DNA of 20,417 bases from a virus: IMG/VR virus record IMGVR_UViG_3300044821_000045, positions 1 through 20,417 of that record; one strand, written 5' to 3'. Made by a program: the position numbers and the translations under genes. Under the pieces are notes generated by a model. It did not search any database. It was not told the origin of the DNA and was given only the letters and a program-made list of their open reading frames with translations. Shown one piece after another: positions 5,481-20,417 of the stretch (positions are counted from its first letter, which is position 1; every line of letters starts with the position of its first letter).

Positions 5481-6221
5481 CTACCCCGCTATCGCCTTGG
5501 GGCGCACAAGCAGCAGGCTGGCATCGCCCACAGGCGGCGGCGCAGTACCTTTGTAGCTTACCAGGATCTGTCCAATGATGGTGTTGCCAAAGGTCCAACT
5601 ATCTTGCGCGTCGTCCGTGGCAGCGGTGGAGTTGATGCGGTAGTCGGCGGTGCCGTTGGAGCGGCCCGAGTTTGTGGTGTCTTGAAACACCGCGAGGTTT
5701 GTGAATGCGCCACCACCCGTGGCGCAAGGAGCGGCGTAGCCCGCGGTAGCCGTGAACCCAGACGTGGTCAGCGCGTGTAGCACAAGGTCGTAGCTCGTCG
5801 TATCCGCGCCGCTCGAGGTGAGCGTCTGCGGACTCGCCTGCGAGCCACCTGCCGAGCTGTGCACATTTGACAGGTCCACCGCGGTGATACCGCTGGCCTC
5901 CATCCACGCTACATTTATCGTCGCGGTGCCCCCTGTGAAGGTCAGCGTGATGGCCTGCGTGCCCGCGGTGGGTGCCAAGCAGCTCGCCGCGAACACGCCC
6001 GAAGAGTCGCCGCCACCAGGATCTGTCTTGGCATCAATTGTCCAGGTGTTGCTCTTGTCGTCAGTCACGCCAATGGTGGTAGAGGACGCCGCGACGCTGC
6101 TCTTGAACGATCCCCATATGAGCAACGAATTGCTGCTCGAGGACGGCGCGGTGATCGTCACCCCTTGCGTTGCCGCCTTGGAGGTGGTCTGGACGGAGCC
6201 ATTCTGAACTGACGCGGTCAC
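5481..6221 (-). CDS. Ser/Thr-rich beta-sandwich protein, possible appendage or decoration
   Basis: The protein is 246 residues, starting at a GTG that overlaps the radical SAM stop (GTGA). The sequence is rich in Ser, Thr, Gly and Ala and consists of short strands: a 'DDKSNTWTID' turn, 'GTQAITLTFTGGTATINVAW' then 'MEASGI', 'YDLVLHALTTSGFTATAGYA', and a final 'QILVSYKG' strand. The order 'D..sNtwt...ga...itltf...a.i.v.e.sG' matches a recurring secreted or phage single-domain beta-sandwich that I recognise by pattern only. A C-terminal tail (about 228-246) is distinct. Many Ser/Thr make it a plausible acceptor for the nearby glycosyltransferases; that is speculation from adjacency. Confidence 0.65.
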   Translation of the reverse strand: MTASVQNGSVQTTSKAATQGVTITAPSSSSNSLLIWGSFKSSVAASSTTIGVTDDKSNTWTIDAKTDPGGGDSSGVFAASCLAPTAGTQAITLTFTGGTATINVAWMEASGITAVDLSNVHSSAGGSQASPQTLTSSGADTTSYDLVLHALTTSGFTATAGYAAPCATGGGAFTNLAVFQDTTNSGRSNGTADYRINSTAATDDAQDSWTFGNTIIGQILVSYKGTAPPPVGDASLLLVRPKAIAG

Positions 6222-6946
6222 GCGCTGCGCGCCTCCAGCAAATGCTCATGCGGCATCGCGCCCGCGTCCTCCTCAAACTCTACGCCCACGTTCTGGTGGC
6301 AGGTGCGGCACAGCGAATAGGGCGACGTCCACGGCTGCACGTCATCCATTACGTGGCCAATGACTCCCACGCCCGTTGCATCAAACGAGCAACGCGTGAT
6401 GCGCCCATCACTCAGCACCATGCCCCACCCGCCCTTCACCCAAGGACAATCCGTGGTGGGGGCCGATACGTGCCACTTGATCTGCCCGGCCCAGTCCGTG
6501 GCCGAAACGGAAGGATCTGCGCTGACGCCTGCAAGCAAGCCAACTTTCTTGAGGGCCTCGACGGCGAAGCTGGCTTTCTCGGGGCGGTGGAGTGAGACGA
6601 AGACAGTGGGGCGGTACGGAGCCATCTGGGCTGCAAGGTTGTCGTTGACAAGAAGACCATTGGTGGCGAGCACCAGCTGATGGTCTGCACCAAGTTGCTC
6701 GCGCGCATAGGCCAGCATCCTTATGAAGTGCGGGTGCATGGTGGACTCACCGATGCCCGCAAGGTTGAGTGGTCCTTGGGTACCGTGCTTCTTACACCAC
6801 ACCGCCAACCTGATCGCCCGCTCAAACACCGCCCACTCCATATCGATCTTGGCGCGCGCCATGGTCGGATGACAGCAATACTTGCACCTCAAGTTGCACC
6901 GCGAGGTGATCTCGATCTGGTGGATCTGCTGGAGCGGGACTTTCAC
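6218..6946 (-). CDS. Radical SAM protein with SPASM/twitch-like C-terminal cysteines
   Basis: The protein is 242 residues, starting at a GTG in a GTGA overlap with the small basic gene. The canonical 4Fe-4S/SAM motif CNLRCKYC is at residues 17-24, after the leading strand IHQIEITSR. A GGE-like GIGES lies at 64-68 (SAM amino-group binding). 'VLATNGLL' and 'VFVSLH' mark later barrel strands. C167, C186, C213 and C216 (the last two as LCRTC) form a CxnCxnCxxC set that could bind an auxiliary cluster. Such proteins modify peptides or proteins, act on small molecules, or mature other enzymes. No substrate is evident. The protein is short for a full SPASM enzyme (often above 350), more like the twitch class. 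The radical SAM call is secure; the substrate is unknown. Confidence 0.92.
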   Translation of the reverse strand: MKVPLQQIHQIEITSRCNLRCKYCCHPTMARAKIDMEWAVFERAIRLAVWCKKHGTQGPLNLAGIGESTMHPHFIRMLAYAREQLGADHQLVLATNGLLVNDNLAAQMAPYRPTVFVSLHRPEKASFAVEALKKVGLLAGVSADPSVSATDWAGQIKWHVSAPTTDCPWVKGGWGMVLSDGRITRCSFDATGVGVIGHVMDDVQPWTSPYSLCRTCHQNVGVEFEEDAGAMPHEHLLEARSA

Positions 6947-7276: not shown

Positions 7277-7795
7277 TCAAGTGCTCTGCGAAAGATTGTG
7301 TGACCCGACGCGGATGCGGTACGTCAGGTCCAGCAGGTCCGAGCCCTGCAACGTGACGCCAAGCCCATTGGTTAACGCCCCAACGATGCCAGACGCGGCA
7401 CTGCTGTTGACAAAGTCACTCATAAACACAGTGTCGAGCGCGCTCGCCGTGAGGCCGTCCGCTGCGCCACCCCACGTGGCCTGCGCAAAGATCCATTCAC
7501 GCGACTGCGCATTGGTGCCTGTGAAGTTGCTCGTCTTGCGCAGCACCTCGCCCACGCCCGCCTGCACAGAGTCGAGCGAATGCGTCGCAGTGACCGTGCC
7601 TACGCCGATCATGTACAGCGGGCTGGTGCCCGTGGCATTGACTGCGCGGTTGGCAATGCGGTTGAGCCCGGCGCGCGTGACGACGTTCTTGAGCGTCTTG
7701 CGCTCTACTGAACCGTCGGCGCGGTAGACTGTGACATCGATATAGCCGAACGGCGATATGCTGTCACTAATCAAGTCACAAGTATCTGCTTTCAT
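7277..7795 (-). CDS. Tail fibre-like or minor virion protein (phage 'VVTxxGLN' type)
   Basis: The protein is 172 residues, starting MKADTCDLISDSISPFGYID. ATG 7795 overlaps the end of the glycosyltransferase fusion by 20 bases and has AGGAGAG about twelve bases upstream; the longer reading from 7936 lies inside the fusion gene in another frame. The block VTVYRADGSVERKTLKNVVT, then 'RAGLNRIANRAV' and 'YMIGVGTVTATHSLDSVQAG', is typical of a widespread small phage tail/appendage domain ('NvvtnaGln.ia......mavGtGt......dt.l..E'). It then passes through 'REWIFAQATWGG' to a beta C-terminus. A structural role is inferred from this resemblance. Confidence 0.75.
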   Translation of the reverse strand: MKADTCDLISDSISPFGYIDVTVYRADGSVERKTLKNVVTRAGLNRIANRAVNATGTSPLYMIGVGTVTATHSLDSVQAGVGEVLRKTSNFTGTNAQSREWIFAQATWGGAADGLTASALDTVFMSDFVNSSAASGIVGALTNGLGVTLQGSDLLDLTYRIRVGSHNLSQST

Positions 7796-10751
7796 ACAGC
7801 TTAGTGCTCTCCTGAAGAAATTTGTTGGCGACTTTGTTGTAGAAGTCCCGCGAGTGGAACCGCCCCTTGAAGTTGAACGACGCTGCGAGGTCTGGGGCCA
7901 CCTCGTTGAGCGAGCGAATGGTGACCTCGGCGTCAAACCCGCCGCCCGTCGTCACGACGCAGTGCGAATAGTACTGCATGCAATCGCCAATCATACGGAT
8001 CTGCTCAGCCCCGTCCACGAGCCGCTCGAATAGCTTGATGCCTTCCTGTGCGCGCTCGATCTGCCCGTGAAGTCGCCGCCCACCCGTCTGCTGGTGCTCG
8101 AACATGAGACCCTGCGCAATGTCGCGCAGCATCAAGAACGAGTTCAGCTGGCGGGTGGGGTATTTCTCGCGGTCCCGCATCAACAGCGGAAAGTTGCGCT
8201 CATACCGCTTGCGCCGCGTCTCCTCGTCCACGTACCCGCCGTGGAGGAATTTCATCTCGTGACGCACGAGCGACCACGTGATCGCCTTGCCAAGCACTGT
8301 TTCGGGATGTTCATGGACGACGCCGTAGAACTTCGCCCCTTGGTTGTTGCGGAACAAGCGGCAAGGAAAATCGGTAGTCAACACCTGGTCTGGGTCTGCG
8401 CTGTAGTGCACCTGTGGGAATCCAAATCCATTGTGCATGGACGGACGCAAGAACAAATGCATGCGGTCTGCGTGGCGCAGCTCTTCGTCTGCGTCGATCC
8501 ACAGGATCCAGTCACCCGCGGCCTGCGCAATGCTCTCATTACGCGCCTCATCGAAACCATCCTTCATCGCTGACTTGCGTGCCATCACGTGCACAATCTC
8601 GCGGTTGGGGAAGTCTTCGATCAACTGCTCGCACACCTGCGCGGTACGGTCAGTGGTGGCGGGGTCAATGTAGATGCGCACTTCATCCACAAAATCTACA
8701 AATGACTCAACGCACTTGCGCAGCGTTTTCTCCCCGTCCTTCACAATCATGCACGCCGTCACCGTCTCGCGTGGCGCGTACTCTGCGAACTTGCGCGCGT
8801 AGTCAATCTCGCCAAACGGCTCCCGCGGCCACACAGCCCACACCCAGGAACCATTGGGCCTCCCACCCGCGTCCACCCCCGCGGGCGCGTGCAGCACAGT
8901 CTTGTCATTCTTACCGCAGAGATCCTCAATGTCTTTGCGCTCATAGTGGCGCAGGTGTTCCCGGCCCGAGCGGAACGGTACCGTGCCTGTCCACTCCCAC
9001 CGCCCATTGGGCGTAGTGAATATGATGGCGCCGTCCTCTGTGAGCAACCCACGCAGCTCCTCGAGCAGCACGCTGGCATCGCGCACATGCTCGAGGACCT
9101 CCGCAGCAATGATAATGTCATACTTCTGCTGGCGCCACGTAACGTCCTTCAGGGCGTGAATGTTGGCATTGGGGAGCTTCTCGATCTCCACCCACTTGCG
9201 GGCAGCGAGAACCGCACGGTCACTGATGTCCACGCCGGTAAACTCGCTGTCTGAAAAGAGCTTGGCGAGTGGAACGAGGTAATGCCCGTGAGCACATCCA
9301 TAATCAAGTACTCGGGAACCGCGTGACTGTCGGTTGCGGATTTCGGCCATTGCATTGAGCACCCCGCGGAACCGCGTGGTCCCTGTTACGTCCTCGCCAA
9401 TCACCGCCTGCTCGTTGGCGTCGTAGTAAACGCCTTGGTGTTTGGCGTAGTGCGCGGCGTAGGCCGTGTCACTGGTCGTAAAAGCGTACATGCGGTTGAT
9501 TTCCCGCGCGACGCTTTTGGAGATGGGGTCGGTGGCATCTTGCGTGCGCAACACCCACCGCGCGAAGTCGATGTCGCTGTGCTCGACAGCGTGCTTCAGT
9601 GCTCGGGGGACGGATACCTTGTCCGCCATGAGCTTGTGACACAGGGTCTCCAGTGCGGTGACAGGGTCTTCCCAACTGCGCAGCCGCGCGGCCGTGGCCT
9701 GAGCTTGCGCCAGCTCCTCGAGCGTGAGGCGCGTGTTGTCGCTGAGCAGCTCCTCTTGGCCGAATAAGTCATGCAGCTCAGCGACGAAGGCATCCTCGTC
9801 CGCCTTGTCGTCCTTGAGCGGTATGAGGATCGTCCCCGAGTCCTTGCACGTCTCCGCAAGGGCGGCTTGATCACTGGTGAGCATGGGCAGCGATGCGTGC
9901 ATGGCCTCCATCGCCGTGATGCAGCTCACTTCCTGAAACTCCGTGGGGTATAGCAGTAGGTCGCACGAGCGCTGAAGCGTGGCAAGCTGGGGCTTACTCA
10001 GCGCCGGGAATTGCACGACGTTGGGCAGTGCGTGGCCCCACGCCTCGAGCTGCGCGTAATAACCACGCATCTGTTCGACTGTGTTGTCGTAGGTAGTCAC
10101 GATCAACTTGACGTTGAGATCACGACACCGATCCATAATGCCCCCAGGGCGTACCAGGTGCTCGAGGCCGCGCTCCGGGCGGCTCTGGTACAGGAGCTTG
10201 AAGCAGTTCTGGGGTAGCGGGGCGGGCAGCTCGACCCTATCACCTGCGTACAGTGCGGCGTCTACCCCGTTACGCACCACATGGATGGTATCAGGGTTGA
10301 TGGTCCAGACGTCGAGCAGTTGCCGCTTGTGCCAATCACTCACCGTGGTCACGGCATCGATCTGCCACATCCCGCCCATCATCGATGACGAGAAGCGGTA
10401 CAACGCCAGGTCGTGCAACTGCCAGATGTTGACCTTGCTAGCATAGGGTTTGTGAAACGCGATGGCGCCGCGCTGCACGATGAGCACGTCATGCGGGGTG
10501 TTGCGAGCGTAGTGCTCAAAGCGTTCACCCAGCGGTGCCTCTGGCGAGGCCTTGCCGCAGGCCAACCACGCCACGCCGTCCTTGGTGGAGTCGTGGTCAA
10601 TGTTGGTCCAGCAGTTGACCTTATGCCCCCGGGCGGCGAGCCCACGGGCCAGGTAATAGGCGGCGGACTCAGAACCGCCGAGTGACTTGGTGGCCACGGT
10701 GTCGCCGTCGAACGGCATCCCCATGGCATGGATATTGATGGAGAGGCTCAT
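7776..10751 (-). CDS. Three-domain glycosyltransferase (GT-B) - methyltransferase - glycosyltransferase (GT2) fusion
   Basis: The protein is 991 residues; ATG 10751 overlaps the upstream stop (ATGA) with AAGGGG five bases before it. Residues 1 to about 375 form a GT4/GT-B-like glycosyltransferase with LGGSE near 24-28 and an EX7E motif E274-E282 in 'EFQEVSCITAMEAMHASLPM'. Residues about 440-620 are a class I SAM methyltransferase with motif I VLDYGCAHGH (481-490), acidic loop GVDIS (506-510) and EVLEHV (551-556). Residues about 662-860 are a GT-A/GT2 transferase with TACMIVKDGEKTL (665-677) and DxD in WIDADEE (D753, D755). The rest is helical. All key residues are present, so all three domains may be active. 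The enzyme would use nucleotide sugars and SAM; acceptors are unknown. Its place in a virion operon suggests glycan building on phage proteins, which is inference. Confidence 0.93.
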   Translation of the reverse strand: MSLSINIHAMGMPFDGDTVATKSLGGSESAAYYLARGLAARGHKVNCWTNIDHDSTKDGVAWLACGKASPEAPLGERFEHYARNTPHDVLIVQRGAIAFHKPYASKVNIWQLHDLALYRFSSSMMGGMWQIDAVTTVSDWHKRQLLDVWTINPDTIHVVRNGVDAALYAGDRVELPAPLPQNCFKLLYQSRPERGLEHLVRPGGIMDRCRDLNVKLIVTTYDNTVEQMRGYYAQLEAWGHALPNVVQFPALSKPQLATLQRSCDLLLYPTEFQEVSCITAMEAMHASLPMLTSDQAALAETCKDSGTILIPLKDDKADEDAFVAELHDLFGQEELLSDNTRLTLEELAQAQATAARLRSWEDPVTALETLCHKLMADKVSVPRALKHAVEHSDIDFARWVLRTQDATDPISKSVAREINRMYAFTTSDTAYAAHYAKHQGVYYDANEQAVIGEDVTGTTRFRGVLNAMAEIRNRQSRGSRVLDYGCAHGHYLVPLAKLFSDSEFTGVDISDRAVLAARKWVEIEKLPNANIHALKDVTWRQQKYDIIIAAEVLEHVRDASVLLEELRGLLTEDGAIIFTTPNGRWEWTGTVPFRSGREHLRHYERKDIEDLCGKNDKTVLHAPAGVDAGGRPNGSWVWAVWPREPFGEIDYARKFAEYAPRETVTACMIVKDGEKTLRKCVESFVDFVDEVRIYIDPATTDRTAQVCEQLIEDFPNREIVHVMARKSAMKDGFDEARNESIAQAAGDWILWIDADEELRHADRMHLFLRPSMHNGFGFPQVHYSADPDQVLTTDFPCRLFRNNQGAKFYGVVHEHPETVLGKAITWSLVRHEMKFLHGGYVDEETRRKRYERNFPLLMRDREKYPTRQLNSFLMLRDIAQGLMFEHQQTGGRRLHGQIERAQEGIKLFERLVDGAEQIRMIGDCMQYYSHCVVTTGGGFDAEVTIRSLNEVAPDLAASFNFKGRFHSRDFYNKVANKFLQESTKLYESRYL

Positions 10752-14974: not shown

Positions 14975-17448
14975 CACTTCTCTCCTGCGCCGAAGCCATC
15001 GGCGGGTTGTAAATCAGCGGGAGGATCTGGGGATTCATTTCCGTCCCACTCACCTCGAGCCGTATCCACCTGCGTCACAGGGATGAGGATGGAGCGGCAG
15101 TTGAAATGGTTGGGTGGGCGGAACACATCCCAATTCGGGCTGTCCGCGTTCCACACCGAACCATCCAGCTGCATGCACAGCTCGGTGGTGCGGTCGTCCA
15201 ACACCGCCGAATACTCTAGCGCCTCCACAAACCCCTCCAGCGCGGGATCTGTGAACTCGGCGTAGCGGCCTTCGTTGAACGCGTCAAACAAGTTGGTGCG
15301 GATGGCGGTATTGAGGTACGCAGCGGCCTGCGCCTCGGTGTCGACCCACAGCGCATCCAGCGCAGCATTCACGCCCTCATCCGTCTCTACGCCCTGCACC
15401 GCCTCTGCGCTCGTCATGCCCTTGGCCACCAACCGGTTCCAGATCGCAGTGCGGATCTCGCCCGCCGTAGACCCGGCCTTTACGCCATTGAGCAGTTCCT
15501 GCTGGATGATGCCCTTCACCGCGTCTGAGGCGTTGCCCGCGATGCGGAAAGCATTGGAGTCGATGTAGTCGGCGGCAACGTTCCGGATATCGGTGAAGCT
15601 CAGCCGTGCCATCTTGGCCTTGGGCTGGAACCCGGCGCGGTCGAGCTCGTTCCGGCCCGTGCTCACGCCGTCAATGTACGAGTTCATGAGGCCAGCCTTC
15701 ACCGCGTTCTTCAACTTGCCCACTTCGTCGCCGCTGAACTTGATGGTCTGGATCTTCTCGGGTTGCGCCACTGCGTTCTGGATCTTGGAGTCGCTGGCGA
15801 TGCGCGAGACCACCTGCGCCACGATCTTAGCGGCATCGGCCACGGTGGACGCGGTAGCGGCCATCTGCCGCTGCTCGATGACCGAGAAGTTCACTCGCTG
15901 CGCTGCAGCCGTGAACGCGGCCAGTGAGCAGGAGCGTGGTTGCGCGTGTACGTGAACATGCCCTTCCGCCCTCGTGGCGTCATCGCCAGAGTGCGTGTGT
16001 GTTGCTGCGGTGCCCACGGAGGGCGGAAGGGTCACGTTGACGGTGTTGTCTTGCCGGGCGGCGAACTGCGCCGTTAGTCGTTCAAGACGAGATTCCAAGT
16101 CGGCCAGCTTGGCCGCAGCAGCGTCCTGTGCCTGCTTGGCCTGTTGTGCCTTGGCCTCAGCGTTGGCCTGCATCGTGTCCTGCGCCAGCTTCTGGGCGGG
16201 CGTGACGATGGGCGTAGACAGCTCGTCGCGCGCTGGCATATCGAGCAGGTTGCGGAGAAACGCCTCGTCCTCTTCTGTGGCCACTGCTGTGCCGGCGCTT
16301 ACCATCGCCGTCCACGTGGTGACCAACCAGCGGAGCCGCTCCTCGGACAGAGGCTTGAATGCAAAGCATGGGCCGTCGCCATCGGCAAAGTTGTACTTGG
16401 CCAGGGGCTTGAACAACTGCTCGTTGAGGCAGGCCTCGAGCCGAGCCTGGTCCTGCTGCAGCGTCCAATAGAACGACTCGAGCTGCGTCTGCGACTGCGA
16501 GTATGCACCCGTTTGCCCGGTGTGCGACGCACCCAGCAGGTTCGGCACCAGCATGGAGCGCGCGATGCCGAGGTCAAAGAACGTGATGGCTTCCTGGAAT
16601 GCCTGTGTGTCTCCTGGCATCTCGAGCTTGAACTCCATGCCCTGTGGCACCAGTAACCCGGCGGAACCCTTGAGATTGGCCAGCGTGGTCTGCATTGCGT
16701 AATAATCGTTGGTGCCGGCACGTGGCGCGCTGCTGTCCTTGGCCGTGAGCACCGGGAACCCACCCGCCAACCGCTCGAGGTGGATGAGCCAGTAGTCCTG
16801 GATGCGCCCCTTGGCATACCAGTACTTGTAGGCGGCGCGCAGATCCGAGCGACCGAAGTACGGGTCCTCTTCGGGGGCGTGCACGTAGTAGACAAAGTCA
16901 TTCAAGTCCAACGTCGTGAGCTGCCCGCCCGCCCGCTGCCTGAACTCCGTCAGCGTGCCGTACCCGTCCGTGACGAACTCAAAGGTGGTTGGGTCACGGT
17001 AGCGGAGCGAGGAGATGCCAATCGCTGTGCCCTCGTCAATCTCCACTGCGCTGAATACCTTCTCCACCAATGAGAACCCATAGTCGCGTCCCGCGGCAAT
17101 CGCGTTGAGCGCGTCCACGAAAGAACCTGGGTAGGCGTCGATGATCTGCTCGTAGATCCCCATACGCCGGGCCTGTTCCTCGGGGCTGAGTGGGCAGGAG
17201 TCATCGTACGAGAACGTCCAGCCACGGGATACGATGGCATCACGCTTGAAGGTGCTGGCGGCCTTGACCTGGTCGTCCAGCCTCATGAGGCCAAAGATCT
17301 TGAGGCCCTTCTGGCGGACGAGTTGATCGGGGTTGACACGCCACCACTCACTGGGGCCAACCGTGAACACGGACTCAAGGCTCGTGATGGTGTCGAGCTT
17401 AGGCTGCGCGGGCTGCTTGCCCGTCAGTGGTGTGACGTTGCCGGACAT
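14974..17448 (-). CDS. Portal (DUF935-type, Mu gp29-like) fused to Mu F-like head morphogenesis protein
   Basis: The protein is 824 residues; its ATG overlaps the terminase stop in TGATG. Residues about 30-400 match a DUF935 portal, with 'FKRDAIVSRGWTFSYDD', 'RDYGFSLVEKVFSAVE', 'HLERLAGGFPVLT', 'GMEFKLEMPGDTQAF' and 'QTGAYSQSQTQLESFYWTL'. Residues about 420-465 are an Ala/Gln-rich coiled coil. A His-rich patch (484-501, six His) follows. About 510-795 is the Mu F-like part, closing with 'LEYSAVLDDRTTELCMQLDG' and 'PPNHFNCRS', its C758 and C784 hallmarks. The portal forms the DNA entry ring; the F-like protein is a minor head protein that often travels with the DNA. These are separate genes in Mu; the fusion is seen in other phages. 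Confidence 0.92.
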   Translation of the reverse strand: MSGNVTPLTGKQPAQPKLDTITSLESVFTVGPSEWWRVNPDQLVRQKGLKIFGLMRLDDQVKAASTFKRDAIVSRGWTFSYDDSCPLSPEEQARRMGIYEQIIDAYPGSFVDALNAIAAGRDYGFSLVEKVFSAVEIDEGTAIGISSLRYRDPTTFEFVTDGYGTLTEFRQRAGGQLTTLDLNDFVYYVHAPEEDPYFGRSDLRAAYKYWYAKGRIQDYWLIHLERLAGGFPVLTAKDSSAPRAGTNDYYAMQTTLANLKGSAGLLVPQGMEFKLEMPGDTQAFQEAITFFDLGIARSMLVPNLLGASHTGQTGAYSQSQTQLESFYWTLQQDQARLEACLNEQLFKPLAKYNFADGDGPCFAFKPLSEERLRWLVTTWTAMVSAGTAVATEEDEAFLRNLLDMPARDELSTPIVTPAQKLAQDTMQANAEAKAQQAKQAQDAAAAKLADLESRLERLTAQFAARQDNTVNVTLPPSVGTAATHTHSGDDATRAEGHVHVHAQPRSCSLAAFTAAAQRVNFSVIEQRQMAATASTVADAAKIVAQVVSRIASDSKIQNAVAQPEKIQTIKFSGDEVGKLKNAVKAGLMNSYIDGVSTGRNELDRAGFQPKAKMARLSFTDIRNVAADYIDSNAFRIAGNASDAVKGIIQQELLNGVKAGSTAGEIRTAIWNRLVAKGMTSAEAVQGVETDEGVNAALDALWVDTEAQAAAYLNTAIRTNLFDAFNEGRYAEFTDPALEGFVEALEYSAVLDDRTTELCMQLDGSVWNADSPNWDVFRPPNHFNCRSILIPVTQVDTARGEWDGNESPDPPADLQPADGFGAGEK

Positions 17449-19482: not shown

Positions 19483-19542
19483 CAGTGTTGACCCTCCCAG
19501 GCACGGCGGATATTACAGCAGCTGAGCGGCAAATGTACAGTC

Positions 19543-19735
19543 TGCACCGGCTGCACCTATAGGTGTAACTGGTTGGTGCAAGGGTAAACGGCTGATTATT
19601 ATGATCTTTATTATACTTGCACCTAAGCACTAAGAGAAAGAGATTGATTTGTATGTACCGAAAGCACATACATAAAAATAAATATACCCCTATATAGAAT
19701 TTAGGGGGCTAAAGTGCGAGTGCCGGTGCGGTGCA
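19543..19735. repeat. Cluster of GGTGCA/TGCACC boxes in the divergent control region
   Basis: TGCACC occurs at 19543-19548, 19552-19557 and 19618-19623. GGTGCA occurs at 19575-19580 and 19730-19735, with near matches GGTGTA (19562) and GGTGCG (19725). Two boxes meet in the perfect 12-bp palindrome CACCTATAGGTG (19554-19565); another pair forms an 8-bp inverted repeat, GGTGCAAG/CTTGCACC (19575-19582 and 19616-19623). A further 7-bp dyad TGTATGT/ACATACA lies at 19650-19672. Repeated short dyads in an AT-rich promoter region suggest operators for a phage repressor or activator, but no regulator gene is in the window. Confidence 0.6.
19603..19640 (-). promoter_or_regulatory. Candidate promoter of the leftward virion operon
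   Basis: The minus strand carries a perfect TATAAT -10 hexamer (19615-19610) immediately after the GGTGCAAG box, with a likely start near 19603 and a ~120-base leader before the terminase TTG. The -35 region (TTCTCT-like, about 17 bases upstream) is poor, as in a promoter needing an activator. A weak plus-strand promoter (TTGGTG 19573-19578, 18 bases, TATTAT 19597-19602) faces it across the same boxes. Confidence 0.45.
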
Positions 19736-19826
19736 AATTTTGGCAATTACCTTAGCAATCAATGAGTTACAAAAAAGGGCGTTCGCAGGTGTACGCGGCT
19801 CCGATTCTCGGCGCATCATCTCGGTC

Positions 19827-20014
19827 GCCCTGATCCGATCGACTCGTGTGCTGCCGGGAGCCTTTTCAAGACTACCCGGGAGTGCCTCCAGGCCTGCATC
19901 TGTGAGCCATTCTCCTCGTGAATGGAGGTCCAACGCTTCACCCGGGCGGTCGGATCGGGGCCTCTGGGGGCATCCCGTTGGTGTCCCCGGCACGCCGAAA
20001 ATGGGGAGACAGGT
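19827..20014 (+). ncRNA. Candidate structured leader RNA upstream of the DUF3854-type gene
   Basis: This plus-strand stretch has no convincing gene but strong folding signals. Helix P1: 19827-19841 (GCCCTGATCCGATCG) pairs base for base with 19947-19961 (CGGTCGGATCGGGGC), 15 pairs including two G-U. Inside it, CCATTC/GAATGG (19907-19912 with 19920-19925, 7-base loop) and CCGGG/CCCGG (19854-19858 with 19875-19879, or the CCCGGG blocks at 19875 and 19941) can form. Helix P2: CTGGGGGCATC (19964-19974) pairs with GGTGTCCCCGG (19980-19990), 11 pairs including three G-U, with loop CCGTT. The G-U pairs fit plus-strand RNA only. No U run follows P2, so it is not an obvious terminator. The Shine-Dalgarno GGGGAG (20003-20008) follows P2. 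A known family is not recognised. Confidence 0.55.
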
Positions 20015-20417
20015 ATGGTGACAGAGGTGGCCGAGCACCCGCAGTCCGCGATGTTGGCGGACTTGGCGAGGTCCGGATTGACGGCGACGGACGCTAAGAA
20101 GCTCAAGCTGAGGGTGCTGACCTCGGACGAAATGGCCGAGGTGTCAGGGAAGGCAAAGCTCAGAGCCAGGGCTGTAGAATTCCCCTACTTCGGGGTGGAT
20201 GGCCGGGACACGGGCACCAAGCGATACAGGTTCCTGGACGAGACCCGGGGGTTCGGGGAGAAGAAGGGCCAACGATACTACCAGCCGCCCGGCACGCTGC
20301 CGAGGGCTTATTTCCCGCCCACCAGGGACTGGGAGAAAGTCGCCGCCAGCATATCGGAAGAGGTGTGGATCACAGAGGGTGAGAAAAAAGCAGCGAAGGC
20401 CTGTAAGGAGGGCCTCG
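20015..20417 (+). CDS. DUF3854 / TOPRIM-like replication protein, N-terminal part (runs off right edge)
   Basis: ATG 20015 with GGGGAG six bases upstream opens a frame that continues to the window edge (134 codons). The N-terminus MVTEVAEHPQSAMLADLARS starts a region with 'SGLTATDAKKLKLRVLTSDE', then 'VEFPYFGVDGRDTGTKRYRF', 'GQRYYQPPGT' and 'YFPP', and finally 'VWITEGEKKAAKACKEG'. The order 'LaxSGlt...a...l', 'y...P.......YfP' and 'lxITEGEkKAlka...G' is the signature of DUF3854, a TOPRIM-related domain found in phage and plasmid primase or primase-helicase proteins; the acidic ITEGEKKA motif is the TOPRIM-type catalytic/metal site. It would serve phage DNA replication. It is transcribed away from the virion operon, so it probably begins the early or replication module. 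The C-terminus is not seen. Confidence 0.88.
   Translation, partial: MVTEVAEHPQSAMLADLARSGLTATDAKKLKLRVLTSDEMAEVSGKAKLRARAVEFPYFGVDGRDTGTKRYRFLDETRGFGEKKGQRYYQPPGTLPRAYFPPTRDWEKVAASISEEVWITEGEKKAAKACKEGL

Follow-up and report, generated by a model that had tools for sequence, protein, structure and literature searches.

The window analysed here is the whole of IMG/VR record IMGVR_UViG_3300044821_000045, 20,417 bases in length. The structural genes (terminase, portal and capsid) are read leftward, and a primase gene is read rightward from position 20015 off the end of the record. Among the leftward genes are those for a 991-residue protein with glycosyltransferase, methyltransferase and glycosyltransferase-2 parts (7776-10751) and for a radical SAM protein (6218-6946). 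The terminase small subunit and primase genes diverge from a gap of 532 bases, and the structured element described below lies inside it.

The primase portion in the window comprises 134 residues and has no Pfam match of its own. Its full-length relatives match PF12965 (DUF3854) and PF19263 (DUF5906), so a preliminary description of this DNA was correct in placing the element before a DUF3854 gene. These relatives also match the solved primase entries 6k9c/6k9e, which we take to be the NrS-1 enzyme (cf. PMC7102993). The same description saw no convincing gene in the stretch itself. The overlapping reading frames were considered as genes and rejected: they match no Pfam or PHROG family, and the open frames of the leader resemble none in the leader of the nearest relative (L006), whose primase frame opens only at its ATG.

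The region 19540-19740, between the divergent genes, is AT-rich and contains TGCACC/GGTGCA repeats; it could be an operator or an iteron-type origin. The corresponding region of L006 has TGTGAC/GTCACA repeats, and the 11-bp CGTATTATCGC is found there in either orientation, resembling a divergent pair of -10 elements.

The features of the leader, all on the + strand, are as follows.

19814..19819, +: CATCAT, a possible -10-like element analogous by position to TATTAT of L006 (position only; weak)
19827..19841, +: 5' arm of P1, the 15-bp helix that closes the domain (strongest + sense helix in the record; z 4.3; pairs kept in L006)
19843..19850, +: P1b, 5' strand, CUCG + GUG (predicted fold; 7 pairs also in L006 by hand alignment)
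19854..19879, +: P2 hairpin, CCGGG...CCCGG (predicted fold; L006 has a hairpin in the matching place)
19882..19892, +: candidate pseudoknot strand GUGCCUCCAGG, partner 19963-19973 (11 bp, offset 1; marginal)
19907..19925, +: 6-bp hairpin; its loop UCCUCGU could pair with the Shine-Dalgarno (SD) region 20001-20009 (from the sequence; SD pairing not above chance)
19939..19946, +: P1b, 3' strand (predicted fold)
19947..19961, +: P1, 3' arm (evidence: see 19827..19841)
19964..19990, +: 11-bp hairpin after P1, excluding the pseudoknot partner 19963-19973 (pair probabilities 0.8-1.0 for a transcript from 19826)
20003..20008, +: Shine-Dalgarno-like GGGGAG of the primase gene (sequence, 6 nt before the ATG)
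20015..20416, +, running off the record: N-terminal part of a primase-helicase gene of the DUF3854/DUF5906 type (phrog_849, DNA primase; relatives with PF12965 and PF19263)

The helix in the window leader

The window helix is real. Every element of the preliminary description is present where it was placed: the 15-bp helix 19827-19841/19947-19961, an inner hairpin of 6 bp (19907-19912/19920-19925), alternative ways of pairing CCCGGG, and a hairpin of 11 bp at 19964-19990. A T-run scan does not identify this last hairpin as a terminator. The G-U pairs had been taken to point to plus-strand RNA; the two in P1 fit the + strand, and this strand preference was right. Among all rightward-sense helices in the 20.4-kb record P1 ranks first (score 37, for spans of 50-200), and a helix as strong appeared in one of 12 dinucleotide-shuffled genomes. 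Within its own leader P1 has a z of 4.3, with its 3' end 53 nt before the AUG, and p is 0.033 against 60 shuffles of that leader.

The P1 domain folds with a z of -3.8 when read as + strand RNA, compared with -2.1 for the - strand; taken alone it gives -3.65 to -4.2. The segment 19740-20020, whose folding had been suggested as a check, did not pass it: its z of -0.46 is no better than that of shuffled sequence. Several of the 580 140-nt windows of the record also have a z below -4. Folding energy alone is thus weak evidence, and the argument rests on comparison. The lowest folding z of the record (-5.1) belongs to 15960-16032, inside the portal gene, where a 14-bp helix can be read on both strands.

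No match to the window was found in Rfam (release 15) at gathering or permissive thresholds, nor to 18 related loci, in agreement with the initial view that the element is no recognisable riboswitch, intron or tRNA-like structure. Searches of annotated phages, by BLASTN with the leader and by tblastn with the primase N-terminus, likewise gave no match.

The formation of P1 depends on where the transcript begins. Its probability is about 1 for a start at approximately 19820-19826 and 0.04 for a start at 19740; the obvious competitor is an 11-bp pairing of 19797-19807 with the P1 3' arm. No consensus sigma-70 site was found in the window region on either strand, nor any terminator. CATCAT stands approximately 8 nt before the 5' arm in the window and TATTAT approximately 10 nt before it in L006. 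Promoter-like hexamers end 4-7 nt before the 5' arm in L105, L106 and L013 and approximately 12 nt before it in L011. Transcription in the window probably begins a few bases upstream of P1.

The pairing is kept in L006, the nearest relative (the same record as L002). The two primases are 50% identical over 133 residues. The L006 helix has 13 contiguous pairs and a span of 135 nt, exactly that of the window helix; it ends 65 nt before the start codon, compared with 53 nt in the window, and its domain has a folding z of -5.6. On hand alignments, which favour the structure, 8 of the 13 aligned P1 pairs are the same, 3 are changed on one side, 2 on both sides and none is broken, and 7 bp of P1b also form in L006, 4 of them doubly changed. 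Pair counts from hand alignment are given here in place of a covariance model because the window structure has one clear homologue only and automatic alignment misplaced the P1 5' arm. Homologous leaders that do not conserve the pairing had been named as evidence that would speak against the structure; L006 keeps P1 with compensating changes. A comparable helix is absent from four near relatives in the same small clade as the window (L007, L100, L102 and L104). A functional RNA structure in the window leader is likely.

Stems in the primase leaders of related viruses

The leader survey covered 100 non-redundant viral leaders of DUF3854-DUF5906 primase-helicase relatives, with start codons chosen by rule and 40-60 shuffles each; relatives from genome contigs, mostly too distant, were left out. 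A contiguous leader helix with z>4 is found in 18 of the 100. Helices with a score of at least 37 end less than 200 nt before the AUG in 17 leaders, compared with 0-5 in every other 200-nt bin from -2000 to +2000. The same bin holds 5 in the opposite sense, and among helices of at least 15 bp the count is 15 in the mRNA sense versus 4 in the opposite sense. A helix precedes the primase in 17 of 80 cases versus 5 of 160 for other genes of the same loci (Fisher p 1e-5). One of those five, in L106, stands before the first gene of a primase operon; in both L105 and L106 the stem precedes another gene and the primase follows approximately 500-700 nt further on. In L144 and L012, inspection showed that the helices in front of other genes do not belong to the primase-leader kind.

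When operon-first cases are included, the helix trait occurs in 24 of the 100 rows of the primase tree, where it is clustered but patchy: 13 changes are required versus 21.9 after shuffling, and at least 7 are forced by well-supported branches. The leader stems lie at or near the presumed 5' end of the transcript, contain 15-29 contiguous bp and span 57-135 nt. The window carries a significant + sense helix ending less than 200 nt before the primase start, the feature by which the family is recognised. About one fifth of the related viruses have a similar stem in the same place, in many cases arranged so that the translation start would be hidden. An unexplained 41-bp contiguous helix in L161 spans 192 nt and ends 547 nt before the primase start.

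Compensating changes are also found away from the window, each time within a small group of related sequences. Twelve of the 15 P1 pairs of L105/L106 are doubly changed and none is broken; for L011/L131 the figure is 4 of 18, again with none broken. L136 has a perfect P1 of unrelated sequence around the loop common to L011/L131. In the clade of L137, L180, L143, L141 and L133, 74 of 75 cells of the inner helix are paired, with 3 doubly changed pairs, and RNAalifold on an automatic alignment reports 5 doubly changed pairs. The SD helix of L141, L133 and L143 is paired in 45 of 45 cells, with 2 pairs doubly changed. Sliding one arm by 1-3 bases lowers the paired fraction to approximately 0.2-0.7. 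A scan of viral contigs for a 17-base motif of L105/L106 returned only those two records and L289, where neither leader nor primase is visible at the motif locus.

Pairing around the ribosome binding site

In eight relatives (L143, L142, L137, L133, L148, L180, L015 and L141) an upstream strand is predicted to pair with the SD at -29 to -37 kcal/mol (z 5-7), and in some of them the pairing also covers the start codon region. In six others (L011, L131, L136, L140, L013 and L168) the SD is paired with a hairpin loop over 9-15 bp. RBS pairing with z>2 is found in 13 of 21 helix-bearing leaders versus 6 of the 79 others. It is at chance in the window (z 0.0) and in L006 (z 0.1), and SD pairing is claimed for neither.

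In L105/L106 a pseudoknot strand directly follows P1. The candidate pseudoknot of the window, 19882-19892/19963-19973, has this topology and is marginal, with uncorrected p-values of 0.026 (20-nt segment) to 0.11 depending on the segment. It and the 19964-19990 hairpin are mutually exclusive. A 13-bp leader helix (z approximately 4.5) also occurs in Stenotrophomonas phage AXL_3, which is cultured, and in Pseudoxanthomonas phage PW916. Its loop is complementary to GCUGAGGAG (p 0.09-0.14, likewise uncorrected), and GCUGAGGAG is likely the SD for a GTG that lies in frame and upstream of the annotated ATG. At L153:2864-2971 two partners are open to the 3' arm CAUUGGUU: the 5' arm AACCAAUG, or a second copy of AACCAAUG at the start codon. 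Such an exchange, as seen in the sequence, would hide or free the AUG.

Proposed control of primase-helicase translation and competing explanations

We propose, at a probability of roughly 0.6, that the element is the structured 5' leader of a replication-gene mRNA and controls in cis the level of primase-helicase translation. The transcript would start a few bases before P1, whose 15 bp would close a branched domain of approximately 105 nt, with the RBS approximately 40 nt downstream. In the wider family a rapidly diverging stem would hide the translation start, either through its 5' arm on the SD or AUG or through a loop-SD pseudoknot. Cleavage by RNase III might open the stem, as might an antisense RNA or a protein, for instance the primase. 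The sequences show where the helices lie, on which strand and with what covariation, and in relatives they show the pairing of the RBS; repression and an opening signal are inferred, and the leader of the window may work alike.

Such control has precedents. In the early mRNA leader of phage lambda N, a stem that is a target of RNase III lowers early-gene translation; the present stems also lie in a phage mRNA leader that may be early, before a different gene, and RNase III might act on them. Asano and Mizobuchi in 1998 and Athanasopoulos in 1999 are said to have described a long stem-loop leader in which a pseudoknot between the loop and the RBS region controls translation of a replication gene. 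In these repZ/repA leaders the pseudoknot reportedly turns translation on, an effect countered by an antisense RNA. The primase leaders resemble them in having a long stem-loop and a loop-RBS-region pseudoknot before a replication gene; they differ in that pairing of the loop would block the SD, they are not known to have an antisense RNA, and the gene product is a phage primase-helicase. The likeness claimed is one of architecture. Studies of the repZ/repA pseudoknots in IncI-alpha, IncB and IncL/M plasmids are listed among the references of PMC10724649. The gene 32 operator of T4/RB69 is a pseudoknot of approximately 28 nt bound by the gene's own ssDNA-binding protein (PMC535899). It too is a folded 5' leader near the RBS of a phage replication gene, and its structure can diverge or vanish among relatives (PMC535899); the primase leader stems, by contrast, are 57-135 nt long and are not known to bind a protein. 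By this analogy the window leader may work like the leader RNAs that control repZ and gene 32, and membership in neither group is claimed. Titles and abstracts on DUF3854/DUF5906, mostly from outside the subscription journals, include no paper about such a leader.

For the relatives, sequence evidence makes cis control of primase-helicase translation the most likely role. For the window we infer it: pairing of its RBS does not exceed chance, the pseudoknot is a marginal candidate, the start of transcription is a presumed one, and the helix is missing from four near relatives. Those four relatives, the unpaired RBS, the marginal pseudoknot, the missing promoter consensus and the loss of P1 with a start at 19740 weigh against a cis-acting leader. 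The unpaired RBS would suit a 5'-terminal stem that is an RNase III processing site or protects the mRNA end with no translational switch: the RBS lies outside the stem in the window, RBS pairing is absent there and in L006, and stems of 15-29 contiguous bp, placed at the presumed start of the transcript or close to it, are long enough for RNase III. Two clades, however, pair the RBS with stem or loop (z 2-7), which stability alone does not need, and we regard this explanation as unlikely. That the window pairing arose by chance in a G+C-rich leader is less probable again. The p of 0.033 against its own shuffled leader, the other 140-nt windows of equal folding z and the four relatives agree with chance, but L006 has a matching 135-nt element in the same place with compensating changes, and P1 is the best + sense helix of the record.

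The inverted repeat might also act as DNA or as a primer-RNA hairpin in a replication origin beside the primase-helicase gene, where it could serve in loading or priming. The repeats of the AT-rich stretch upstream and of L006 recall iteron origins, the gene product is a primase-helicase, and G-T pairs are formally compatible with a hairpin in one DNA strand. The mRNA-sense bias (17 vs 5, and 15 vs 4 for helices of at least 15 bp), the tight link of the helices to start codon and RBS, and the L105/L106 stem before another gene with the primase some 500-700 nt away make an origin element very improbable. Slighter still are the chances of a free phage ncRNA acting in trans, which the preliminary description had offered beside a cis-regulatory RNA. 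The domain is discrete and compact, and both in the window and in L006 it has apical loops with UCCUC/CCUCC that look like anti-SD loops; yet no terminator follows it, the helices track the primase start, and in relatives the partner is the SD of the same mRNA, the RBS often being part of the structure. The cis-regulatory half of that proposal, with a 5' leader read rightward into the DUF3854 gene, is supported by the covarying L006 homologue and by the position-specific, strand-biased enrichment of leader helices across the family.

Beyond cis control in this one leader, it is conceivable, if somewhat doubtful, that an undescribed and widespread class of switchable leaders controls the replication operon of many DUF3854-DUF5906 phages. 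Its architecture (a 5'-terminal stem with RBS sequestration or an adjacent pseudoknot) would be kept while the sequence is almost wholly turned over, and the window would be a member with two exclusive states, 19963-19973/19882-19892 or 19964-19974/19980-19990. In a few plasmids and phages, leader RNAs are known to limit the supply of a replication protein; a family of phage replication genes now appears to carry them as well. Varied modes of hiding the RBS with almost no sequence conservation would cause homology searches and Rfam to miss these leaders. The family offers a testable case of RNA control in phage replication, and the cultured phage AXL_3 has a related leader. At L294:906-969 (AXL_3; also PW916, L293) the primase may start at the in-frame GTG, which has a strong SD, GAGGAG.
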